DNA of 64,000 nt. Source: Ulva prolifera (lineage: Eukaryota > Chlorophyta > Ulvophyceae > Ulvales > Ulvaceae). Position 1 is the first letter of the stretch, and each line of letters begins with the position of its first letter. The DNA lies in contig CM041200.1 of NCBI GenBank assembly GCA_023078555.1, positions 2,860,001 to 2,924,000 on the forward strand. Reading direction: 5' to 3'. This document shows, in pieces, positions 5,515 through 58,487 of this stretch. Below the pieces are notes generated by a model that saw nothing but the letters and a program-made list of their open reading frames with translations, had not been told where the DNA came from and searched no databases. Made by a program: the position numbers and the translations under genes.

Positions 5515-8500
5515 CCGGTATGCTCAGCGAGTGTTGCAGTCAGACGTGGAGTCCGTCACGACAGACGAGCTATCCGGCGAAGATGAGGAGATCGATGAAG
5601 ATGCTGCCTTCACAAAAGAGGATGAAGAGAAGTACGGTGACTGGTTTGGAGGTGAGGCTGGCTCTGCAGGAGACGATGGCTCAGAAGAGGATGACACTAA
5701 CGACGACGACGGGAGCGATGGGAGCCAAGAGATGCCTTCCCAGGAGGGTGTGTCCCATGCAGGCATTGACCGGCCTGACTTGCCGTGAGCCTGCCACCAG
5801 GCCTGTTCCAACCAATACACACCCACAGCGCCCCACTCTGCAGCTGCAGGCCTCGAGGGCTCCAGCGACGGATCACAGGATGAAGAGGACACGTCTGACG
5901 AGGACGAGGACGGCGGCGGCGGCGATCACGAGGGGCTGTTGTGGCGAGTGGCGGGCCAGCAAGATCGCCCTCAGGCAAGGCGGGTGACAGTGGTCAATGA
6001 GGCTGTCGCAGAGGACGAGCACAACGTGGCTGCACCAGCAGAGGGTGGCGCGGGCTTACAGCTCGAAGACCTCCTCAACGCCACTGAGCTGGGCGCCTCG
6101 GCCCGCAAACAGCTGCAGAAACTGGTCTCCAAGCCACAGGTGCCGCCTATTCACACCACCTTCTGTCCACAGACAGCTGCGCTGCTCCCGCACACAGCGA
6201 GCTCTGGTGCAGGTGATTGGGGCACGGCTACCAAAGGCGATACAGCAGCGGCAGGAGCGCAAGGCTGCGTATGCGGCGAGCAGCAAGGAGGCGTCCAAGT
6301 GGATGCCGCTGGTCCAGGCGAACCGGCAGGCGCCGACGCTGCGGCTGACGGCAGACGATGCCGCCACGACCACCACCACCGCCGCTGGCCTCGCCTCGAA
6401 GCACACCCCCGTGTCAGACTTCGAGCAGGAGATCGCCGACATGCTCAAGGCCGCGGGCCACAGCAACGCTGCCTCTGCGGCGCAGGTGCGCGGCTGCCTG
6501 GCCAGCTCCCGGTTCCAGCAGCCGGCACCTCCTCCCCAACGCCGTGATGCCTCTGTGAGGCATCCCTTTCGCATCCAGATTCCTTGATGACAGTCCACCA
6601 CGCCGGAGCGCACCAGCCTCTGTCTGCCAGGTTCTGCGTGCGCCTGAGCACCGGCCACTGCGCCTGCCGCTGCTACAGCCGGCGGCTGCTACTCAGCAGG
6701 GCATCTGCGTGCAAGGGGGGCCGCAGCTACTGCATTGCTGGAGATGCGTGCAGGTGGACGAGGCGCTGGGCAGCTCGCGGCTGAGTGCGGAGGAGTGGCA
6801 GGCGCGGCAGGCCGCGATGGCGAAGAACAGCGCGCTGCTGTTCTACCAGGAGCACAAGGCGAAGCGGCTGAAGAAGATCAAGAGCAAAGCGTACCACCGG
6901 CACCTCAAGAAGAAGGCCGCCAAGGCGATGCCCGCCGACGACGAAGCGTCGCAGCAGGCGCGCCGCCTTCTCCTCCTCCTCCGCGGCCCTGCGCTGCGCT
7001 GACAGCTGCAGCCTGGCCGACGCGGCACAGGGCGCTCTCCCGATGCGCGGACTGGCTTACACATCGCAACGGCCGGGATGGTGGAAGCTGTGCGGCGTTG
7101 GGATCCGTGAGTGTGTGCTCTGCGCCACGTGGGCAGGCGGAGGGGGGCGCTGTGGCAATGAGGCAACAGATCGATCACGAGGGTGTGGCTGAGTGCGCCA
7201 GAGCGGCAACAGTGGTGACACGACAGAGGTTGGGCGTGCATGTGAGGTGCTGGGTTGGGGTGCAGGCGCGGGCGGAGGAGGAGGAGTTCCGGAGGGCGCA
7301 GGAGCGGCTGACGCTGAAGCACCGCAACACCTCGCGGTGGGCGCGGCGGGCACTGAAGCGCGGCCTCAGCCTCGCGACGGACAACGAGCGGGAAGCGCTG
7401 CAGGAGCAGCTGCGCCTTGGCCGCGAGCTGCGCGCCAAGGCCGCCACCGCGCGGGACGGCAGCGACTCCGACGCCAGGTTCGCGCCACTCGCTTGCATGC
7501 ATGCCCGCTCGCGCCCACGCGGACCCTCCCCCTGCGGCCCCACGCCGCGAGTCGGCCGCCGCAGCAGGAGAGTGTGCATGCGCTGCTGGGGCTTGCCGTT
7601 CACAACGGGTGAAGCGCCAGCCAACTGCATGCCACAGCGTTGCAGACGCGTTGTGGCCTTATGCCACGAGCCGCGGCGGCAGTGTGAAGGGGCGTGTGCA
7701 TGTGCAGCACGGACGTCTCGACGGACGAGGAGGGTGGCGAGCGGCCGGAGCTGAGCACTCGAGACAAAGCGGAGCTCATGGAGGCGATGCAACAGGGCCA
7801 GCTCGCCGGCATGGAGAAGGAGCTCCCGCAGAAGGGCTTGTTTGCGATGCCGTTCATGCGACGCGCGCTGGCAAAGCAGCGAGAGGCGGTTGCGCTCGAG
7901 GCAGGGGACATCCTCGCCGCACAGGAGCTCGTCGGAGCCCTGCCTGCTGGAGAGGAGGACCCAGGCAGCACGCAGAGCCACTCCGGCAGGATTGTGATGC
8001 CTGGGCCGACCGCGGCCGGACGCCGCGGTGGGCGCGCAGAGCTGCAGCCGGTGGTGGAGGAGGAAGGTGGGGAGGAGGAGGACGCCGCCGCGCGCGCTGC
8101 GCGCATGCATGAAGCTGCAGCGGCCCAGCTCCGCACGGCGGCGGGCAGCGATGCTGCTCCGCGGAGGGCGGTCGTCAAATCAGCTGCTGCTGGGAAGGTC
8201 AGCAAAGGGGGGGCTCCAGAGGCGGGATCCCGCGTAACTGTGGCTGGCCGGGCTGGAGCGGTGCGGCCGCAGGCAGCTGATCAGGTGAGCGTCTGCTCAG
8301 CCGCCTGCCTGTGTGGTGCTTGGAATGTCTGCCTGTTCCACTCTGTACGTGTGCCCGCCGGATGTGCATGTCTGGCGCTCTGCGCCATGTGCAGTTTTGC
8401 ACCAGGCCATGTGATCGACACGGCCTGAGCTCACGATTCGACGCATCCCTGTTTGGCCCAAGGCCACCTCAGCATCTGCAGGGGCTGCCGCGAGCATCCA

Positions 8501-36205: not shown

Positions 36206-36274
36206 AATTCCTGCAGTTGCCTGCCTGGAATTCCTGCAGTTGCCTGCCTGGAATTCCTGCAGTTGCCTGCCTGG
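36206..36274 (+). repeat. 23-bp unit, three perfect tandem copies
   Basis: Unit AATTCCTGCAGTTGCCTGCC plus TGG, at 36,206, 36,229 and 36,252. It contains EcoRI-like and PstI-like palindromes. Confidence 0.92.
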
Positions 36275-37106
36275 AACAGCACATTCTGCCTTTGCGGCTG
36301 TGGCTCTGTTAACGTTGGGCCACGGCCGGGACAGCCCTGATGTGGCCTGGTGTCGAATCCACATGCAGAGGGCTGCGCGGCAGTGGGTGGGTCTGTTGCG
36401 TTGCTGACGTGTGTTGGGAGGGTACATCGGGTATCTGGGACCTGCAGCCCCCCATGCATAGCCAGCCTGAGCCAGCACGGCTGCAGCCATGGGCAACCTC
36501 GTGTCATGCTCTAGGCTATTGTGCCACGTGGTGTGATTGTGGGTGGCTGTGCTGCACGTGTGGGCAACTGTGTGGGTTGGTGCTAGCGTGCGTCGGCCGC
36601 GCTGGGTTCAGCTTGTGCGGGGGCGTTGCAGGATTGCTCTGCTTGCTCCGGCTACACAGAAAGTCCGCCCAAAAATAGCACGCCCACACAGGAACCCCAT
36701 CATTGCGCAGCACGTCCAAGGCATCACCAGACGCGCCCAGCAGCGTCGCGCCAGGACGACCCGGCCGCAGGCAAAGCAGGCATCGGCAACGCCGCCCTTC
36801 GGGTCGGGGCTGGAGAGCAGGGCAGTAGAGGCCGTGGGGAGGCGGCGCTGCGCGGGCAAAGATGGGCGGCCCGCCGCTCAGGCCAGATGGCCAGCGAGCG
36901 GCAAGAAGTCATCGAATGGAACCGTGAGTCCCGTCAAAACTGCCACACCCACGTGACGCGCCATCCGCACAGCAGAAGAGCGTCGAGAAACGATTGCGCA
37001 TTGCGTTCTGAGGGAAAGCCACCCAGAGGCAGCGCCCGACCCTGCAGCCACGCCGGAAAGCCTGCCGAGGAACACAAACGCGGCCAGGCTAATCCTCCCA
37101 TACGTG
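36275..37106. other. No confident gene
   Basis: Short overlapping frames on both strands. The stretch 36,650-36,950 is GC-rich and open on both strands, without a recognised motif. It may be a downstream exon of the minus-strand Pro-rich frame beside it. Confidence 0.3.
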
Positions 37107-50913: not shown

Positions 50914-53900
50914 ACCCGAGCGTATGGCGGAGGACCACAGCTCGCACAGGCAGCAGCGTCGGCCCCACGGGGTGTGGGAGAGGGCCAGTTATTTTATGAA
51001 CTAGCGCTAGTCTGGCAGGAGCTTCTCAGTCGCTTTGCTGTCGCGCGTGAGGGTCGCGCTCAAGCTCAGATGTTGCTTACCGCGTTGAAGCTTGCGATCG
51101 CAGCGCTGCGGATCGCCCCACTGTCCCCAGACGGAAGGTAGTGATTTCTATCAGCTGCATGAATTGCTTGCTTTGACGCCCCGGGAAAGCTTAGCAGTTC
51201 GCGTGTTGTCCTCGCTGAAGTGTGGTCACGGCTGTATCGGAACCCAGACTGTGGACGAGCCACGGTTCCGCAGCGGCTCTGAGATCACCTGCCGCCCTCG
51301 TAATTGTGGATCCTCTCCACTACATTGGTATCGCTATGCAGATGGCCTCACACCACAGACGTCGTGTCAGCAGCTCTGCCAAACTGCCAGTGCATTTGCA
51401 GGCCACAAGCACAGCGAGCAGTGGCAGTCGCCATGCTGCTCTCCGACCTGTCCACCTCAGGCGTGCCTGTGGATGTGCACAGTGTCGTTGCAGCAGTCGT
51501 TGTTGACGGTGTGTCATCTGGCCACATCCCCATGGAAGTGGTCCACCGGGAGCAAGGCATGGACGTACGCCCTGCCACTCCTCCTCTATACACATCGTCC
51601 ACACTGTCGCTCGGCAATGCCCTTGCATGGAAGGCGCCCGCTTCTGCATGGCCGATGCATAGAGCCCACCTGCCGGCAGTGCCTGTCACCCTCAACTGTC
51701 ATTTAAGCCCTAGCACCACTGCAGGCCTGCGTGCTGGTGCACGAAGTGCAGCGTGTGCGCGCCGCCCCCCGCAGCATCGACATGTACGACGATCGCTCCG
51801 CTGCTGCGCTGCGCGAGCAGATCCTGTCGACGTGCGACACGCGCGCTGTGCTTGTGGAGCTCGCCTGCCGCCTCGACCAGCTCCAGAACTGCCACACCAT
51901 GAGCCTTGCTCGGCAGCAGGTCCTCGCGCTCCAGGTGCCCCCCCCCCCCCCCCCCCCCCCAACACCACTTTTCTGTCTACACGCATAAGCTGTGTTGTCA
52001 CTGCAGCTGGTTGCCATCCCGGCAGACTGTGGCTGCCGTGCGAAGCGAGGCGACCCGCGTGGTGGGGTGTGCTCAGGCCGTGCTGTGATGTGGGGGCGCG
52101 TGAGGACGCCTCCATGCTCTCCCCCGGTGTGCACGCCGGCAGCCAGTATGGCCGGCTGAGTGCAGGTGCTGCAGATCTTCTCGCCGATGGGCCATGCGCT
52201 GGGGCTGTCGGTGGTGAGCGCACGGCTGGATGACCTCGCGCTGGGGGTGCTCTTCGGCTCAGTGTACGCCGACATGCGTGACTGGATGGGCGAGCAGCAG
52301 CGGCACTGGACGGGCCTGCTCGAGGACATGCAGCGGCAGGTGCAGCAGGCGCTCGACACGTGTCCGGAGCTCGCAGAGGTGGGGGCCGTCGCTTGCGTGT
52401 CTACAAGGGCCAAATCGGCATACTCATTGATGAAGAAGCTGGCCACTCTCTCTGGCACGCCTCTCCCCTCGCGTGCGGTGCATGCCACCTGGGGCAAGCC
52501 CTCTCATGCCGCATCTGTCTCGCTCGTTGACTGTTGGTCCAAAGTGGCAGTGGCTGGGTTGCTGAGGTGGGTGGCACATGCACCGTCTGCCCATGTGTGT
52601 GCTCGCAGCTCAACCACTACCAGGTGGTACAGGTGTCTGGCTGCAGCTGGAAGTGCGCTTATGCATGATGGCCGGCCGTCAGCAAGCACAGCCAGGCGCC
52701 TGGTGCTCGTCCTTCTCTACGGTGAACCTGTAGTCCTGGGTGCCATTGTGCTAGTGTGGCAGTGTGCTTGCCTCGTGCCATCTGTCAGCAGGCTGGTGTG
52801 GGGTGCAGACTTCAGTTGTGGCGGCAAGGCGCTGGACGAGACGTACGACGTGCTGGGCATGCGCATCATTGTGGAGGGCCGCGGCGGCGTTCCACTGCCC
52901 GAGGCCGCCGGCCGTGACGCCTGCTACGCCGTTGAGCGCGTTGTCGGCGGCCTGTGGACCGTCATCCAGAGCCGCCGGAAAGACTACATCGCGAAGCCGA
53001 AGAGTAATGGCTACCAATCGCTACACCTCGCCGTCGAGGTGCCGGCCAACCTGCGGCGCGGCGCCGGTGCCGGCGCAGGCGCAGCGCGTGGCGGTCGCGT
53101 CACGGCGGTGGAGGTGCAGGTGCGCACGAGCGCCATGCATGCAGCCGCGGAGGAGGGCATTGCAGCGCACATCTCGTACAAGAGCGGCATGGACGTGCAG
53201 CAGTCGACGCGCCTTCATGAGTGGACGCAGCAGCTCATGCAGGCACGCTCCGTCCCCCCCACGTGTGCCCCTGCTGGTGCAGGGCGCATCAGTGCACGCA
53301 CCGCCGCACATGTCTGCACCGATCAGCGGTGCGCATCCCGCCAGTGTGTTGAGGAGGTGCTGGGTGTGACTTCAGGGGCAGTGTGTGCAGGCATTCAGCG
53401 CGTCGGAAGCCACGACCTCGATTGAGCGGTGGGGCAGCGACGCGACAGAGTCTGATGGGGAGGGGGCGTTGGAGCCGCCGGTGCGTGTGTGTGCGCCGTC
53501 TGCGCCAGCGGCCACCGAGAGCCTCTCGCTGGTCACGAGCGCCGCAATCAAGTCGTCGCTGCTGCAGAACGTTCCGGAGGCACTTGCGGCAGCGTCGGCG
53601 GTGACGGCAGAGGTGGCTGCGCGGGAGCTGTTTGCACACATCGACCGTAACGGCGACGGCGCGATCTCAATAGAGGAATTGCAGGATGTGATGCGGGACC
53701 TCGGGGAGGATTCTGCTGCGGCCGCGGCGGAGGCCCGGGCGCTGCATGCCGCGCTGACGGACCGCCGCGGTGCAGGTGGCCACATCACGTATGCAGACCT
53801 GCTCAGCTTCCACCGCAGCGCCCTGGCGAGTGACAGCGGCCTAGACAGCAGCCAAGGAGCAGCACGCAAATCCTCGCCGCAGTCCCTGTGCGCGGTGTCC

Positions 53901-56900
53901 GCAGCTGCGCGGCAGCCGCGCCACGATGGCCACTGTGTGGGGCGGCCGTTCGGGGCATGTATGCGGGGGGTCCGACTGGGCCGCCAGGTGAGCATGCGTG
54001 CGCATGCTCGCGACCAGCAGTCGCAGTCGGCGCGCTTGTCCAATGGTGCGCCGGTGGACGGGCCGGGGCAGGTGCAGGCTGGGGTCCGCACAGTGGAGGT
54101 GGGGCCGGCGGGGGCAGGCCCAGACGTGCTGCAGCGGCCGCAGCTGCGGGCTGACCTGAGCGGCGGCGGCGACGACGGGTCATATCGCTGGACGGACCCC
54201 AACGCGACGCAGTGGGACGTGCCGCTGGATCAGCTCGAGGCAGAGCGTGCGGAACTGGAGGCCTCCGAGGGAGATATGCCCGAGGAGCAGCGCAGGTTCC
54301 TGGACCGCATCAACCTTGATGTGATTCCCGGGGGGCTTGACACGGGGAAGTGGCAGGCAGCGGACGTGCTGCAGGTTGCTGGCACGTCGGCGCGCGTGCT
54401 GCGGGAGGCGTCGCCGTTCATGCTGCTGCTTGACGAGGGAGCGGTGGACTGCGTGGATAACGTGCTGGGTGCGCTGGTGCTGCGCGACGGACGGACAGCG
54501 CTCGTTGTGCCGGCGCACGGGCCGCTGGTGATGGGCGCGACGAAGTTCCGGGGGTGCGACGTGGTGCTGGACGAGCCACGCATCTCAGGGCGGCATGTGT
54601 TCTTCGAGGCTGTGACCGGCAAGGGCGGCACGCGGCTGACGGTCACCGACATGGGCTCCACCAACGGTGTGTACTTCAACGGCGAGAAGCTGCAGCCGTG
54701 GGCGCCGGTGGAGCTCGGCGTCGGGGATGTAGTCGTGCTGGGGGCGCGCGAGTTTGCGCGCTTCGAGGTCGGGCCGGTCGGCAAGGCAGACCTCAAGGTG
54801 CGGGGCGGGCTATCGCACCTGGCTCTGTCAGCACAGCAGCTCCTGCGTCAGCCCGGCAATATGTAAGCATGGCGTTGCTTCTGCCTCTCAGCATTGCCTT
54901 GCAACAGTTTGCAACACGTGGCTGCCGTGTGGCCGCTGAGCGCTGGGGATCTACGCTGGGTCGAGCTGATGTGCTGTGCTGCACAGGAGGCGTCAACGAT
55001 TGCGGCCCTGGTGGACGACCTCAAGGCCCTGGGCCACCACATGAGCGACCGTGCATGGCGGATAAACAAGCGCCAGCGCCTTGCACTTGGCTGCCTGCGC
55101 CACCCAGCCTCGCAGCTCACCAAGGCGACGCTAGCTGAGTCAGGCAGGCCCCCTGTCGCCAAGACGCTGCCACGCACGTCCCTCGCAGACGTGGCCACTG
55201 CGGCCGTGCCGCTGGCCGCGTGGAACCGCCGCGGCCGCGACGACCTAGTGCGCGACTTGCTGCGCCAGGGCAACGTCAACCGCGCTGTGGACCTGCTGCA
55301 CCGGCTCGCGGTCAACTACCCAACAGACCCGCGCACATGGGTGGCGCTCGCAGAGCTGCGCCTGTTCTACGACGCGGACGTGGCTGCTGCGCGTGTGCGC
55401 TGCCGCGCTGCTCTCGAGGCCCTGTGCATCTCCCGCAGCCAGCTCAAGAGCATCATCAGCCTTGGCCATGACCACACGGACAAGCTGATCCGGCTAGACC
55501 TCATTCAAGTGCATGTGCGCCACCCTCGCATAGAACCGGCCTGCTGCACTTAGCAAGTGTTGGGCCACCGCAGGAGGTGCCACCAGTAGCCGATGGTAGC
55601 CACTGCATCATGTCGTGGCTGCGTTGAGTCCCAAAGGTGATGCTTGTGTGGCTCCACGCGGTGCGCAGCTGGCATGTTTAAGGACGTGCGTGGTATGCTG
55701 CAGGCGTTGACAACATTCGCGTTGACAGAGGCACAGGCGAACGTTATGACCCCGGCACGGCGGCTGTTTCGGGAGGCAGAGCAGCTCGCGGTTCGCAGCG
55801 GCCTGCTTGCGATGCAGTATGTCTTCTGGTCATGGGGGGACTGCGAGCTGCAGCAGGGTAATCCCGCGATGGCGGTGGAGGTTCTCAAGCGCGGCCTCCG
55901 CGTCTGCAAGACCCCCGCCCTCATGCTCCTCCTTGCCAAGGCATGCCCCCGCCCCCTTCGTGTCGCAAATTCTGCTGGGTTTGTCCTGTGTCAAAGCGGT
56001 AGACCAGGACAGCCACTGAGGATCAGGTCTGGATTAACAAGGACGCGTACAATTCATCTAGACAACCGTTTCCGCGGGATGCGCTGGTGCCGGCTACATG
56101 CGGGGTGCTCGGACCAGCGTAATTGCCGGCGCCTTGACGTGCCGGCGTGTGCAGGCAGAACTGACGACTGGCAAGAAGGTGCGCGCGACAAAGCGGCTAG
56201 AAGCGCTGTCAACGCGCTTCCCCGGCTCCGCAGCGGCTGCGTATGTGCATGCATCAGCATGCCTTGACACGGGGGCGGCGCAGAGCGCGCTGCAGATCGC
56301 AGAGCGCTTTGCCAGCGCGGACGATGGCGAGGCGGACGCGGGGGTTCGTGCCGCACTGCAGACCTGCAAGGCACGCGCGTTGACCGCGCTTGGGCGGCTG
56401 CCGGCTGCGCTAGAGTGCGTGGAGGCCGCGCGGGAGAATGAAAGCCGCAGCCCGCACATTCTCATGCATGCGCATGAATTCCACCCTTGGCGGCTGCCCG
56501 AGGAGGCACGGCCGGCGCTGAAGGAACCGCACCTGTTTGTGCACTCGTGCATACGTGCCTCGCGGCAAGGGTTTGTGTGGGTGCGGGAGGTAGTGTCACG
56601 AACGCAGCTCGACGTGGCGCGAGCGCTCATTCCACAGAATCCGCAGAGAGCTTATAGCCTAGCAAGGGATGCCGTCAGTTCGGGGAAGGCGCAGCTGATG
56701 TCACACTGTGTGGCGGCTGAGGCGGCGCTTGCATACGATCCTGCCACTGCGCGGCCGCACTTGATGGCGGCACTGCGGCTGGGTGGGAACAACGCGACAG
56801 TGCTCAGGCTGTTCTGTGCCTGGGCACATAGATGTGGCTACGCTGAGGATGCGACCACGGTAGAGCTCCTAGCGGATGAATTACAACGATTAGGCAAGGG

Positions 56901-56967
56901 GCGTGTCCCTGCGTCGGTGCAGGGAGCTGCACATGATGCTCTTGACAGGTTTATGGCAGGCTCGTAA
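50914..56967 (+). CDS. CRSH: Ca2+-activated (p)ppGpp synthetase (CRSH) fused to an FHA domain and HAT/TPR-like repeats
   Basis: CRSH enzymes make the alarmone (p)ppGpp from GTP/GDP and ATP in plastids when Ca2+ binds their EF-hands. Exon 50,914-51,137 (QLFYELALVWQELLSRFAVA, TALKLAIAALRI, PLSPDGR) joins 51,402-51,564 in phase (AG|G = Arg), giving the decayed HD region AVAMLLSDLSTSGVPVDVHS. Exons 51,725-51,934 and 52,166 onward carry RAAPRSIDMYDDRSAAALRE and FSPMGHALGLSVVSARLDDL. The synthetase core (about 52,810-53,240) has YDVLGMRIIVEG, KDYIAKPKSNGYQSLHLAVE and VEVQVRTSAMHAAAEEGIAA. A canonical EF-hand loop, DRNGDGAISIEE, follows at 53,643. The same frame runs into an FHA domain. A phase-0 intron (54,798-54,986) then joins it to HAT-like repeats ending DALDRFMAGS-stop at 56,967. 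The 5' exon and the junction near 53,245-53,385 are unresolved. Two merged genes are the alternative, but no start codon or 3' end is visible between the parts. Confidence 0.8.
51402..51934 (+). other. Degenerate HD (hydrolase-like) region of CRSH
   Basis: Aligns by eye with the RSH HD domain (AMLLSDL...VVAAVVVDGVSSG), but the His-Asp metal pair is replaced by V-D-G and the following E-D by S-S. The region should not hydrolyse (p)ppGpp, as known for CRSH proteins. Confidence 0.7.
51938..51960 (+). repeat. Poly-C run of 23 beside a splice donor
   Basis: Uninterrupted C homopolymer starting three bases after the GT of the CRSH intron 51,935-52,165. Confidence 0.92.
53643..53678 (+). other. EF-hand calcium-binding loop
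   Basis: DRNGDGAISIEE has D1, N3, D5, S9 and E12, all canonical ligands. A second loop about 35 residues on (LTDRRGAGGHITYADLL) lacks acidic residues at 3, 5 and 12 and is probably inactive, whereas land-plant CRSH usually has two working loops. Confidence 0.85.
54480..54797 (+). other. FHA phosphothreonine-binding domain
   Basis: GPLVMGATKFRGCDVVLDEP, RISGRHVFFEAV, then TVTDMGSTNGVYFNGEKLQP and VELGVGDVVVLGAREFARFE follow the FHA order. The R-x-S-x-x-H (RISGRH) and S-T-N-G (GSTNG) ligand residues are present, so phosphopeptide binding is plausible. Confidence 0.88.
54987..56967 (+). other. HAT/TPR-like helical repeat region of the CRSH fusion
   Basis: Blocks such as LLRQGNVNRAVDLLHRLAVN with TWVALAELRLFYDADVAAAR, then TPARRLFREAEQLAVRSGLL with WSWGDCELQQGNPAMAVEVL, have the W...A..E...G....AR spacing of half-a-TPR repeats. 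Further helices are LEALSTRFPGSAAAAYVHAS and ARPHLMAALRLGGNNATVLR. HAT proteins usually scaffold RNA-processing assemblies. Exons are roughly 54,987-55,420, 55,680-55,940, 56,150-56,460 and 56,600-56,967. TGTAA lies 79 nt past the stop. Confidence 0.7.
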
Positions 56968-57045: not shown

Positions 57046-57050
57046 TGTAA
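57046..57050 (+). terminator. TGTAA poly(A) signal candidate for the CRSH fusion gene
   Basis: TGTAA 79 nt after the stop at 56,967, the chlorophyte-type signal also seen after PsbQ, AP1M, MCTS1 and the first STPGR gene. Confidence 0.5.
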
Positions 57051-57555
57051 CTGTACCGGACGTTCACGGCTTGTGACCTTGGTGTTGTGTCATACTCTTT
57101 CTTTCTGTTTGTTTATCTTGTCTTTGCGAAGACAGTAGTGTAACGTGCATGTGTTGTTGCATGCATGCGGGCACCCGCCTACAAGTACGGCATGTATGCG
57201 GAGCCCAGAGCGCAACCAGGTGTCCTAACGCTGTACTTCTGTCGTGTTACATATATGCACATCATGTAGACCGTCGCAAAGTGGTCAATTTGCCGTGGAA
57301 CGTGCAGTGAAACAGTGCTTTGCTGTCATCTTCGTTGGGACTGGGCAGCATACATCGCGAAGTGCTGTCGAACAGGCCGCGGCTTGAGCAAGAAAAATGA
57401 TACCGTCTCGGAGCTTGCCTCAAGGTCTTGGTTCGAGGGCGTTGCTTGGTCCTTTGCGATGTGGCGATCCCGGAAGCACGGTGTGGCAGTCTGCCGGATT
57501 TGCCGGACGAGGCAGCCGAAAGTACCGAGATACATGCGCCGCGGTGCTATTCATG

Positions 57556-58487
57556 GCATCGAGTGCTATGAAGAGTTCCAAGTATAAAATTCGGGTTCCG
57601 AGCTACCGTACGCCCAAGAATTTGTCGAAACAGGTGCGCCAGCTAGTGGCTACGACACGTAGACAACCGCTGCAGCTGAGAACAAATGCTGCGGCCAGGT
57701 CCACGACAATGGATACCAGCCCTTAGCCAACGCGGCTGGCGCACTATGTTCCGAAGTGCTTCGTTGCGTTGCTGTCATGCTCCTGTTGTGCAGTTGATCA
57801 TGAAGTACTATGATCAGGTATGGAACGAAGGCGACACAGCCATGTTGAAGCACATCTGCAGCCAATCCCTCGTGTTCCTGGACGTGGCCTGCTGGCCTGA
57901 GCCATATGTAGGGCCAGATGCGGTCACCAAAGTCATTGAAGAGTGCGGCACCGACTGATGCTTTGAATTTGCTTCGACAGTTTTCCATGCAGCTGCACCC
58001 GTGTGTCCAGAGGCGTGGGCAGCAGCACATCAGCAGGGGCTCTCATCAGCACTTCGCGAATAAGTCATGGCACATACTTCACATGCGCTCATCATATGTG
58101 GTTTCTTTGGCATTGTGCTAGTGCGTGATTCGCAACAGGTCAAGCATGACCTGGGCTTGTGATATCCGTTATGATGTAGCCCCAGCACGCCGATAAAGCT
58201 GGGCTTATGCGTGATGTCGCCGCTGCAGGTATTTGAGCGCATATAAAGCAATCAGGTTTTCTGATGTTGAATTGCTTGTGACAGAGGACGGTTCAGCTGT
58301 CATGGCGCATTGGAAAGCAACAGCCTTTCACCTGGGGGCATTCTTGGGAACCCCTGCTTCTGGAAAAGTCCAAGAAATCAGAGGGATGTCTTCCTTTATG
58401 GTTGTCGACGACAAAATTGCTAGAATAGAAACGTTCAGGGAACAGCTCATTCACGAGCAAGCGTTTTCTGCCGATTATGGACTATAA
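57556..58487 (+). CDS. NTF2/SnoaL-like fold protein, probably plastid or mitochondrial targeted
   Basis: Exon 57,794-57,920 or later reads LIMKYYDQVWNEGDTAMLKH then FLDVACWPEPYVGPDAVTKV, the start of a SnoaL-like ester-cyclase fold (helix, N-E-G-D, then G-P-x-A). The last exon, from about 58,230 to the stop at 58,487, reads YKAIRFSDVELLVTEDGSAV, MAHWKATAFHLGAFLGTPAS and GKVQEIRGMSSFMVVDDKIA, the curved-sheet half of the fold. An upstream stretch with a basic leader, MKSSKYKIRVPSYRTPKNLS then KQVRQLVATTRRQPLQLR (57,568-57,700), may be a targeting exon. Phases between exons were not all reconciled. SnoaL-like proteins have varied substrates, so none is assigned here. Confidence 0.65.

Follow-up and report, generated by a model that had tools for sequence, protein, structure and literature searches.

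The plus strand of the 64,000-nucleotide stretch of Ulva prolifera DNA analysed here (hereafter, the window) encodes, between positions 50,914 and 56,967, an HD domain, a RelA_SpoT synthetase, an EF-hand, an FHA domain and TPR repeats, in that order, as judged by profile searches and open reading frames (Table 1). When the nine exons are joined, they yield 1,441 residues without a stop codon, with domain scores well above the respective cut-offs, and terminate at a stop codon at 56,965-56,967. The best reading of these data is that the CRSH synthetase, the EF-hand, the FHA domain and the helical repeats form one polypeptide, and we consider it likely that this is a single nuclear gene for a calcium-type (p)ppGpp synthetase of the CRSH/RSH4 kind with a C-terminal docking tail; all domains would then be carried by one transcript. 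The order of the blocks on the plus strand and the stop at 56,967 had been proposed in an initial annotation, and the profile matches and the frames agree with it; the single polypeptide that it envisaged also stands as the best reading, except that the helical repeats do not hold up as HAT repeats. Exons were placed by combining open frames, splice signals and protein similarity, and this combination did not yield the first exon, the start codon or the transit peptide of the CRSH gene.

Table 1. Features of the proposed CRSH-FHA-TPR gene and its 3' flank (positions in the window)
Feature	Positions	Strand	Basis and remarks
Decayed HD (hydrolase) exons	50,914-51,137, 51,402-51,564, 51,725-51,934	+	GT-AG borders; HD_4; motif loss
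Exon across the HD-synthetase border, with the TRAKSAYS motif of the synthetase start	52,166-52,472	+	Splice borders; Thermus Rel alignment
Synthetase exon (RelA_SpoT)	52,809-53,251	+	PF04607, 88.1 bits on open frame, 94.6 joined
Proposed phase-0 intron, synthetase to EF/FHA exon	53,252-53,390	+	One of 32 open solutions among 153; exact sites uncertain
Single exon encoding the EF-hand, the linker and FHA	53,391-54,797	+	Open frame 53,370-54,866
EF-hand with canonical calcium loop	53,619-53,705	+	PF13405, 30.0 bits (cut-off 25); PDB calmodulin matches
Low-complexity linker, uncertain join	53,829-54,170	+	Weak coding score; no TGTAA
FHA	54,549-54,743	+	PF00498, 53.4 bits (cut-off 20.7); the Gly-Arg pair, immediately 5', reads Thr-Lys
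Proposed phase-0 GT-AG intron, 189 bases	54,798-54,986	+	In-frame stop at 54,864 inside TGTAA
First TPR exon	54,987-55,508	+	TPR_14, 26.4 bits on open frame
Second TPR exon, GC donor proposed	55,704-55,940	+	TPR_14, 21.1 bits on open frame, below cut-off 23.5
Last TPR exon with stop codon	56,155-56,967	+	TPR_14, 22.0 bits on open frame, below cut-off 23.5
Two TGTAA motifs, possible poly(A) signals 3' of the stop	57,046-57,143 (at 57,046 and 57,139)	+	Motif scan; weak

The combination of a decayed HD domain and a RelA_SpoT synthetase, with which the initial annotation began, is borne out by the profile searches. For HD_4, the open frame 51,707-51,985 reaches 21.6 bits and the joined protein 56.8 bits (E=2.8e-15), and RelA_SpoT, already detected on a single open frame, gains several bits on the joined exons (E=5.9e-27); both scores rise on joining, which supports the splicing proposed for the 5' half. 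In an alignment with Thermus Rel, the hydrolase motif is lost, LLHDTLED being replaced by VVVDGVSS, and the synthetase motifs RxKxxYS, YDxLxxR and KDYIAxPKxNGYQSLH are retained, with threonine in place of the glycine that precedes the first synthetase-motif arginine (that of RxKxxYS). According to the accessible sections of Avilan et al. (2019; PMC6881373), a change of the glycine at this site is found almost throughout the red RSH4 clade, and two diatom enzymes that carry it make (p)ppGpp. The joined HD-synthetase region matches 16 PDB sequences at E<=0.01. Neither TGS nor ACT was matched in the open frames scanned or in the joined parts, and the NCBIfam matches of the joined parts all fall below the curated cut-offs. 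A run of more than 20 C residues is found at 51,938-51,960 (+), inside the intron 51,935-52,165.

The window protein accordingly displays the traits of RSH4/CRSH: a degraded HD domain, a conserved synthetase, a C-terminal EF-hand and no matched TGS or ACT. The C-terminal EF-hand is typical of most plant and green-algal members of this group. Land-plant RSH4/CRSH (At3g17470), as described in the accessible part of PMC10107265, is alike in the decayed HD, the synthetase, the EF-hand that follows it and the lack of a matched TGS, whereas the window protein differs in the addition of FHA and TPR and in having one Pfam EF-hand as against two.

The CRSH blocks and the FHA domain had been annotated as sharing one continuous frame. 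This holds for the EF-hand but not for the synthetase, which occupies another frame (open 52,160-53,425) and has to be spliced to the EF/FHA frame. Among the 153 combinations of GT and AG at this junction (introns shorter than 60 bases being skipped), 32 leave the joined frame open, so that finding a possible junction carries no weight on its own; of these solutions, we favour the intron 53,252-53,390. The synthetase is joined to the EF-hand because a synthetase followed by an EF-hand is the known RSH4 order, as given in the accessible sections of PMC6881373. One EF-hand, in the frame of the FHA domain, is recovered with PF13405; Pfam matched no second one in the open frames scanned.

So do the EF-hand and the FHA domain belong to one gene or to two? 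Their common frame runs uninterrupted from 53,370 until the stop codon at 54,864-54,866, and we join them on the strength of this frame and of the green-algal precedent considered below. Under the gene's own codon model, the shared frame of the linker between them scores 0.033, the best of six frames (the next being -0.162), with the sure exons at 0.157 to 0.246 in leave-one-out scoring and one intron frame at 0.005; under a kinase-trained model, it also leads the six frames, with -0.218, but is outscored by several intron frames. The 300 bases 5' of FHA (54,171-54,470) behave as coding sequence, with 0.246 when left out in the same manner. An open linker was rejected as proof of a single gene: of 5000 random sequences matched in composition, 1529 lack a stop there as well, and 100 of 5000 stay open across the whole of 53,829-54,470.

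An alternative that we regard as unlikely is that of two adjacent genes on the same strand, a CRSH gene that stops a short way past the EF-hand and an FHA-TPR gene that begins at an in-frame ATG, for instance at 53,961. The weak coding signal of the linker and the ease with which it stays open by chance would fit this arrangement, but the shared frame offers no stop, and the first gene would require an extra splice to a stop in another frame, such as that at 53,842 or 53,989; moreover, a motif scan detected no TGTAA within 53,252-54,861. In-frame ATGs are indeed available at 53,961 and 53,994, the residues after the former look slightly transit-peptide-like by eye, and the C-terminus of land-plant CRSH, in the accessible part of PMC10107265, carries EF-hands only, but for green-algal RSH4 gains of TPR and 'forkhead' have been reported (PMC6881373, accessible sections). 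We retain the reading of one gene that runs through the linker.

The FHA domain covers positions 7-67 of the 67 positions of PF00498 (E=3.5e-14). The phosphothreonine ligand residues of FHA domains are a Gly-Arg pair, Ser, His and Asn. The initial annotation had described a full domain with the RxSxxH and STNG residues; the coverage of the profile and the retention of Ser, His and STNG in the PDB alignments agree with this description, but the Gly-Arg pair reads Thr-Lys. In three of the four PDB alignments shown (2n84, kanadaptin and GarA), it is the lysine that stands opposite the arginine of the pair, and in the fourth (1uht) it is the threonine. The genome contains 11 FHA matches, and in the nine in which this site was read by eye, arginine is found seven times and lysine twice, the window FHA included. 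Another FHA match (L009, 1,501-1,728 on the minus strand) has GK for GR, and the lysine variant is thus not unique to the CRSH protein. With Ser, His and STNG kept but the pair changed, binding of phosphothreonine by the window FHA is plausible but not assured.

The FHA exon and the first TPR exon lie in the same frame, interrupted between them by nothing but the stop at 54,864, part of a TGTAA at 54,862-54,866 (+). The phase-0 GT-AG intron that had been proposed here can indeed join them, as one of 14 open solutions among 49 (seven donors by seven acceptors). With 14 of 49 combinations open at this junction and 32 of 153 at the preceding one, frame-joining introns were rejected as proof. The last intron, 55,941-56,154, is best fitted as GC-AG. 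Of the HAT/TPR-like character that had been ascribed to the repeats, the TPR part survives: the joined repeats score 53.9 bits with TPR_14 (E=1.1e-14, cut-off 23.5), other TPR models remaining below their cut-offs, whereas a HAT identity is not supported, as PF23231 appears only at E=0.096 on one exon and no HAT model reaches E<=0.1 on the joined repeats. The proposed tie to RNA metabolism had been drawn through HAT repeats and, with TPR scoring in their place, is unsupported. The HAT-TPR proteins MBB1 and NAC2 of chloroplast RNA metabolism (PMC8635915, accessible part) resemble the window protein in possessing helical repeats and in coming from green algae; unlike them, the window protein lacks a significant HAT match, and it is the TPR models that score. 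Searched against the PDB, the joined repeats gave nothing at E<=0.1, and the first repeat exon alone gave one match at E=0.12.

Because the same-frame FHA and TPR exons are parted only by a stop that lies inside a TGTAA, one could imagine a single gene with two protein forms, in which the intron 54,798-54,986 is retained, or an early 3' end is formed at its TGTAA, to give a CRSH-EF-FHA protein without TPR. A lone TGTAA is no strong sign, however, there being 48 on the plus strand of the window, and we hold this possibility to be very unlikely. The two TGTAA motifs beyond the final stop were rejected as proof of a 3' end, given that at least two are found in 156 of 3000 random sequences. That the locus is an assembly error or a decaying gene, as the altered glycine before the synthetase arginine might suggest, is scarcely credible in the face of 1,441 residues without a stop across nine exons and of domain scores well over the cut-offs.

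The genome (88.9 Mb in 44 contigs) matches the chlorophyll a/b-binding family 38 times, as befits a green photosynthetic eukaryote, and light-harvesting proteins compared with the PDB point to such an organism too. In it, both the FHA part and the first TPR exon are single-copy: besides itself, the former has two weaker matches (E=5.4e-4 and 0.65), as does the latter (E=0.035 and 0.33). RelA_SpoT is matched four times, once in the window and three times at loci with HD_4, one of which also has TGS; eight chosen open frames from these three loci, which represent part of their exons, contain no EF-hand, FHA or TPR model at E<=0.01. Among viral contigs, neither the FHA part nor the synthetase part has a relative, and the first TPR exon, taken with nine intron bases, has none among the genome contigs searched, a set outside the eukaryotic genome collections.

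CDD, which stands in the reference list of PMC6881373, names FHA 'Forkhead associated', and for this reason we read the 'forkhead' domain of Chlorella variabilis RSH4 as FHA, which it probably is. This 'forkhead' domain, as well as TPR repeats at the C-terminus of RSH4 in some green algae, are already on record (Avilan et al., 2019, PMC6881373, accessible sections, the TPR repeats being cited from Ito et al., 2017), and the novelty implied by the initial annotation largely fails with them. The window protein shares its C-terminal TPR repeats with those green-algal RSH4 proteins and probably shares the FHA gain with the Chlorella variabilis protein, if 'forkhead' equals FHA. The accessible sections of PMC6881373 do not state that TPR and 'forkhead' occur in one protein, and none of the papers searched unites CRSH, 'FHA domain' and ppGpp. 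We have to conclude that the architecture is largely known and that having both FHA and TPR in a single protein extends it slightly at most. In the portions of the literature accessible here, domain gain is described as frequent in algal RSH4 (PMC10107265), a CRSH is reported from Chlamydomonas (PMC8863741), and CRSH had earlier been placed in land plants only (PMC5633626). At the genomic level, the window gene clearly exemplifies how RSH4 has gained domains in a green lineage, and it suggests a single architecture that the TPR and 'forkhead' gains on record may share.

What could such an enzyme do? The content and order of the domains, the loss of the hydrolase motif, the retention of the synthetase motifs in the alignment and the single copy are direct observations, and the functional scheme goes beyond them. 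The HD part would be a dead scaffold, the synthetase would make (p)ppGpp and the EF-hand would switch it with Ca2+, while FHA and TPR would make up a tail at the C-terminus by which the enzyme docks to a partner, probably a phosphorylated one, or to a complex; alternatively, the binding of a partner to the tail might free the enzyme from inhibition. The enzyme is most likely one of the plastid. Activation by Ca2+, known for plant CRSH (PMC10107265, accessible part), would apply here by analogy, and docking to a phosphorylated partner may be envisaged from the FHA domain. The initial annotation had tied (p)ppGpp synthesis to both Ca2+ and phosphothreonine; both ties appear plausible, and the second is weakened because Thr-Lys replaces Gly-Arg. 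In any case, the gene offers a concrete protein on which the joint action of phosphorylation and Ca2+ on alarmone synthesis can be tested. A more elaborate version, to which we would assign little probability, is that of one enzyme with three inputs, namely, Ca2+ sensed by the EF-hand, a phosphorylated partner recognised by the lysine-variant FHA and a complex bound by TPR, such that a choice at the intron 54,798-54,986 adds or omits the TPR tail and (p)ppGpp synthesis is directed to a particular site within the plastid; the separately reported gains of TPR and 'forkhead' would then represent one conserved architecture.

Rfam (at gathering thresholds) and tRNA scans of the 64-kb window returned nothing. 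Just 3' of the gene, open frames at 57,680-58,487 (+) resemble a small NTF2/SnoaL-like gene by eye, and the first of them (57,680-57,955) has nothing in Pfam at E<=0.001. Far upstream, the open frame 6,648-7,751 (+) matches Utp14, a ribosome-biogenesis protein, with 63.4 bits, the nine other open frames of the window scanned alongside it being without a match at E<=0.001, and a perfect tandem repeat with 3.1 copies of a 23-base unit lies at 36,206-36,276.
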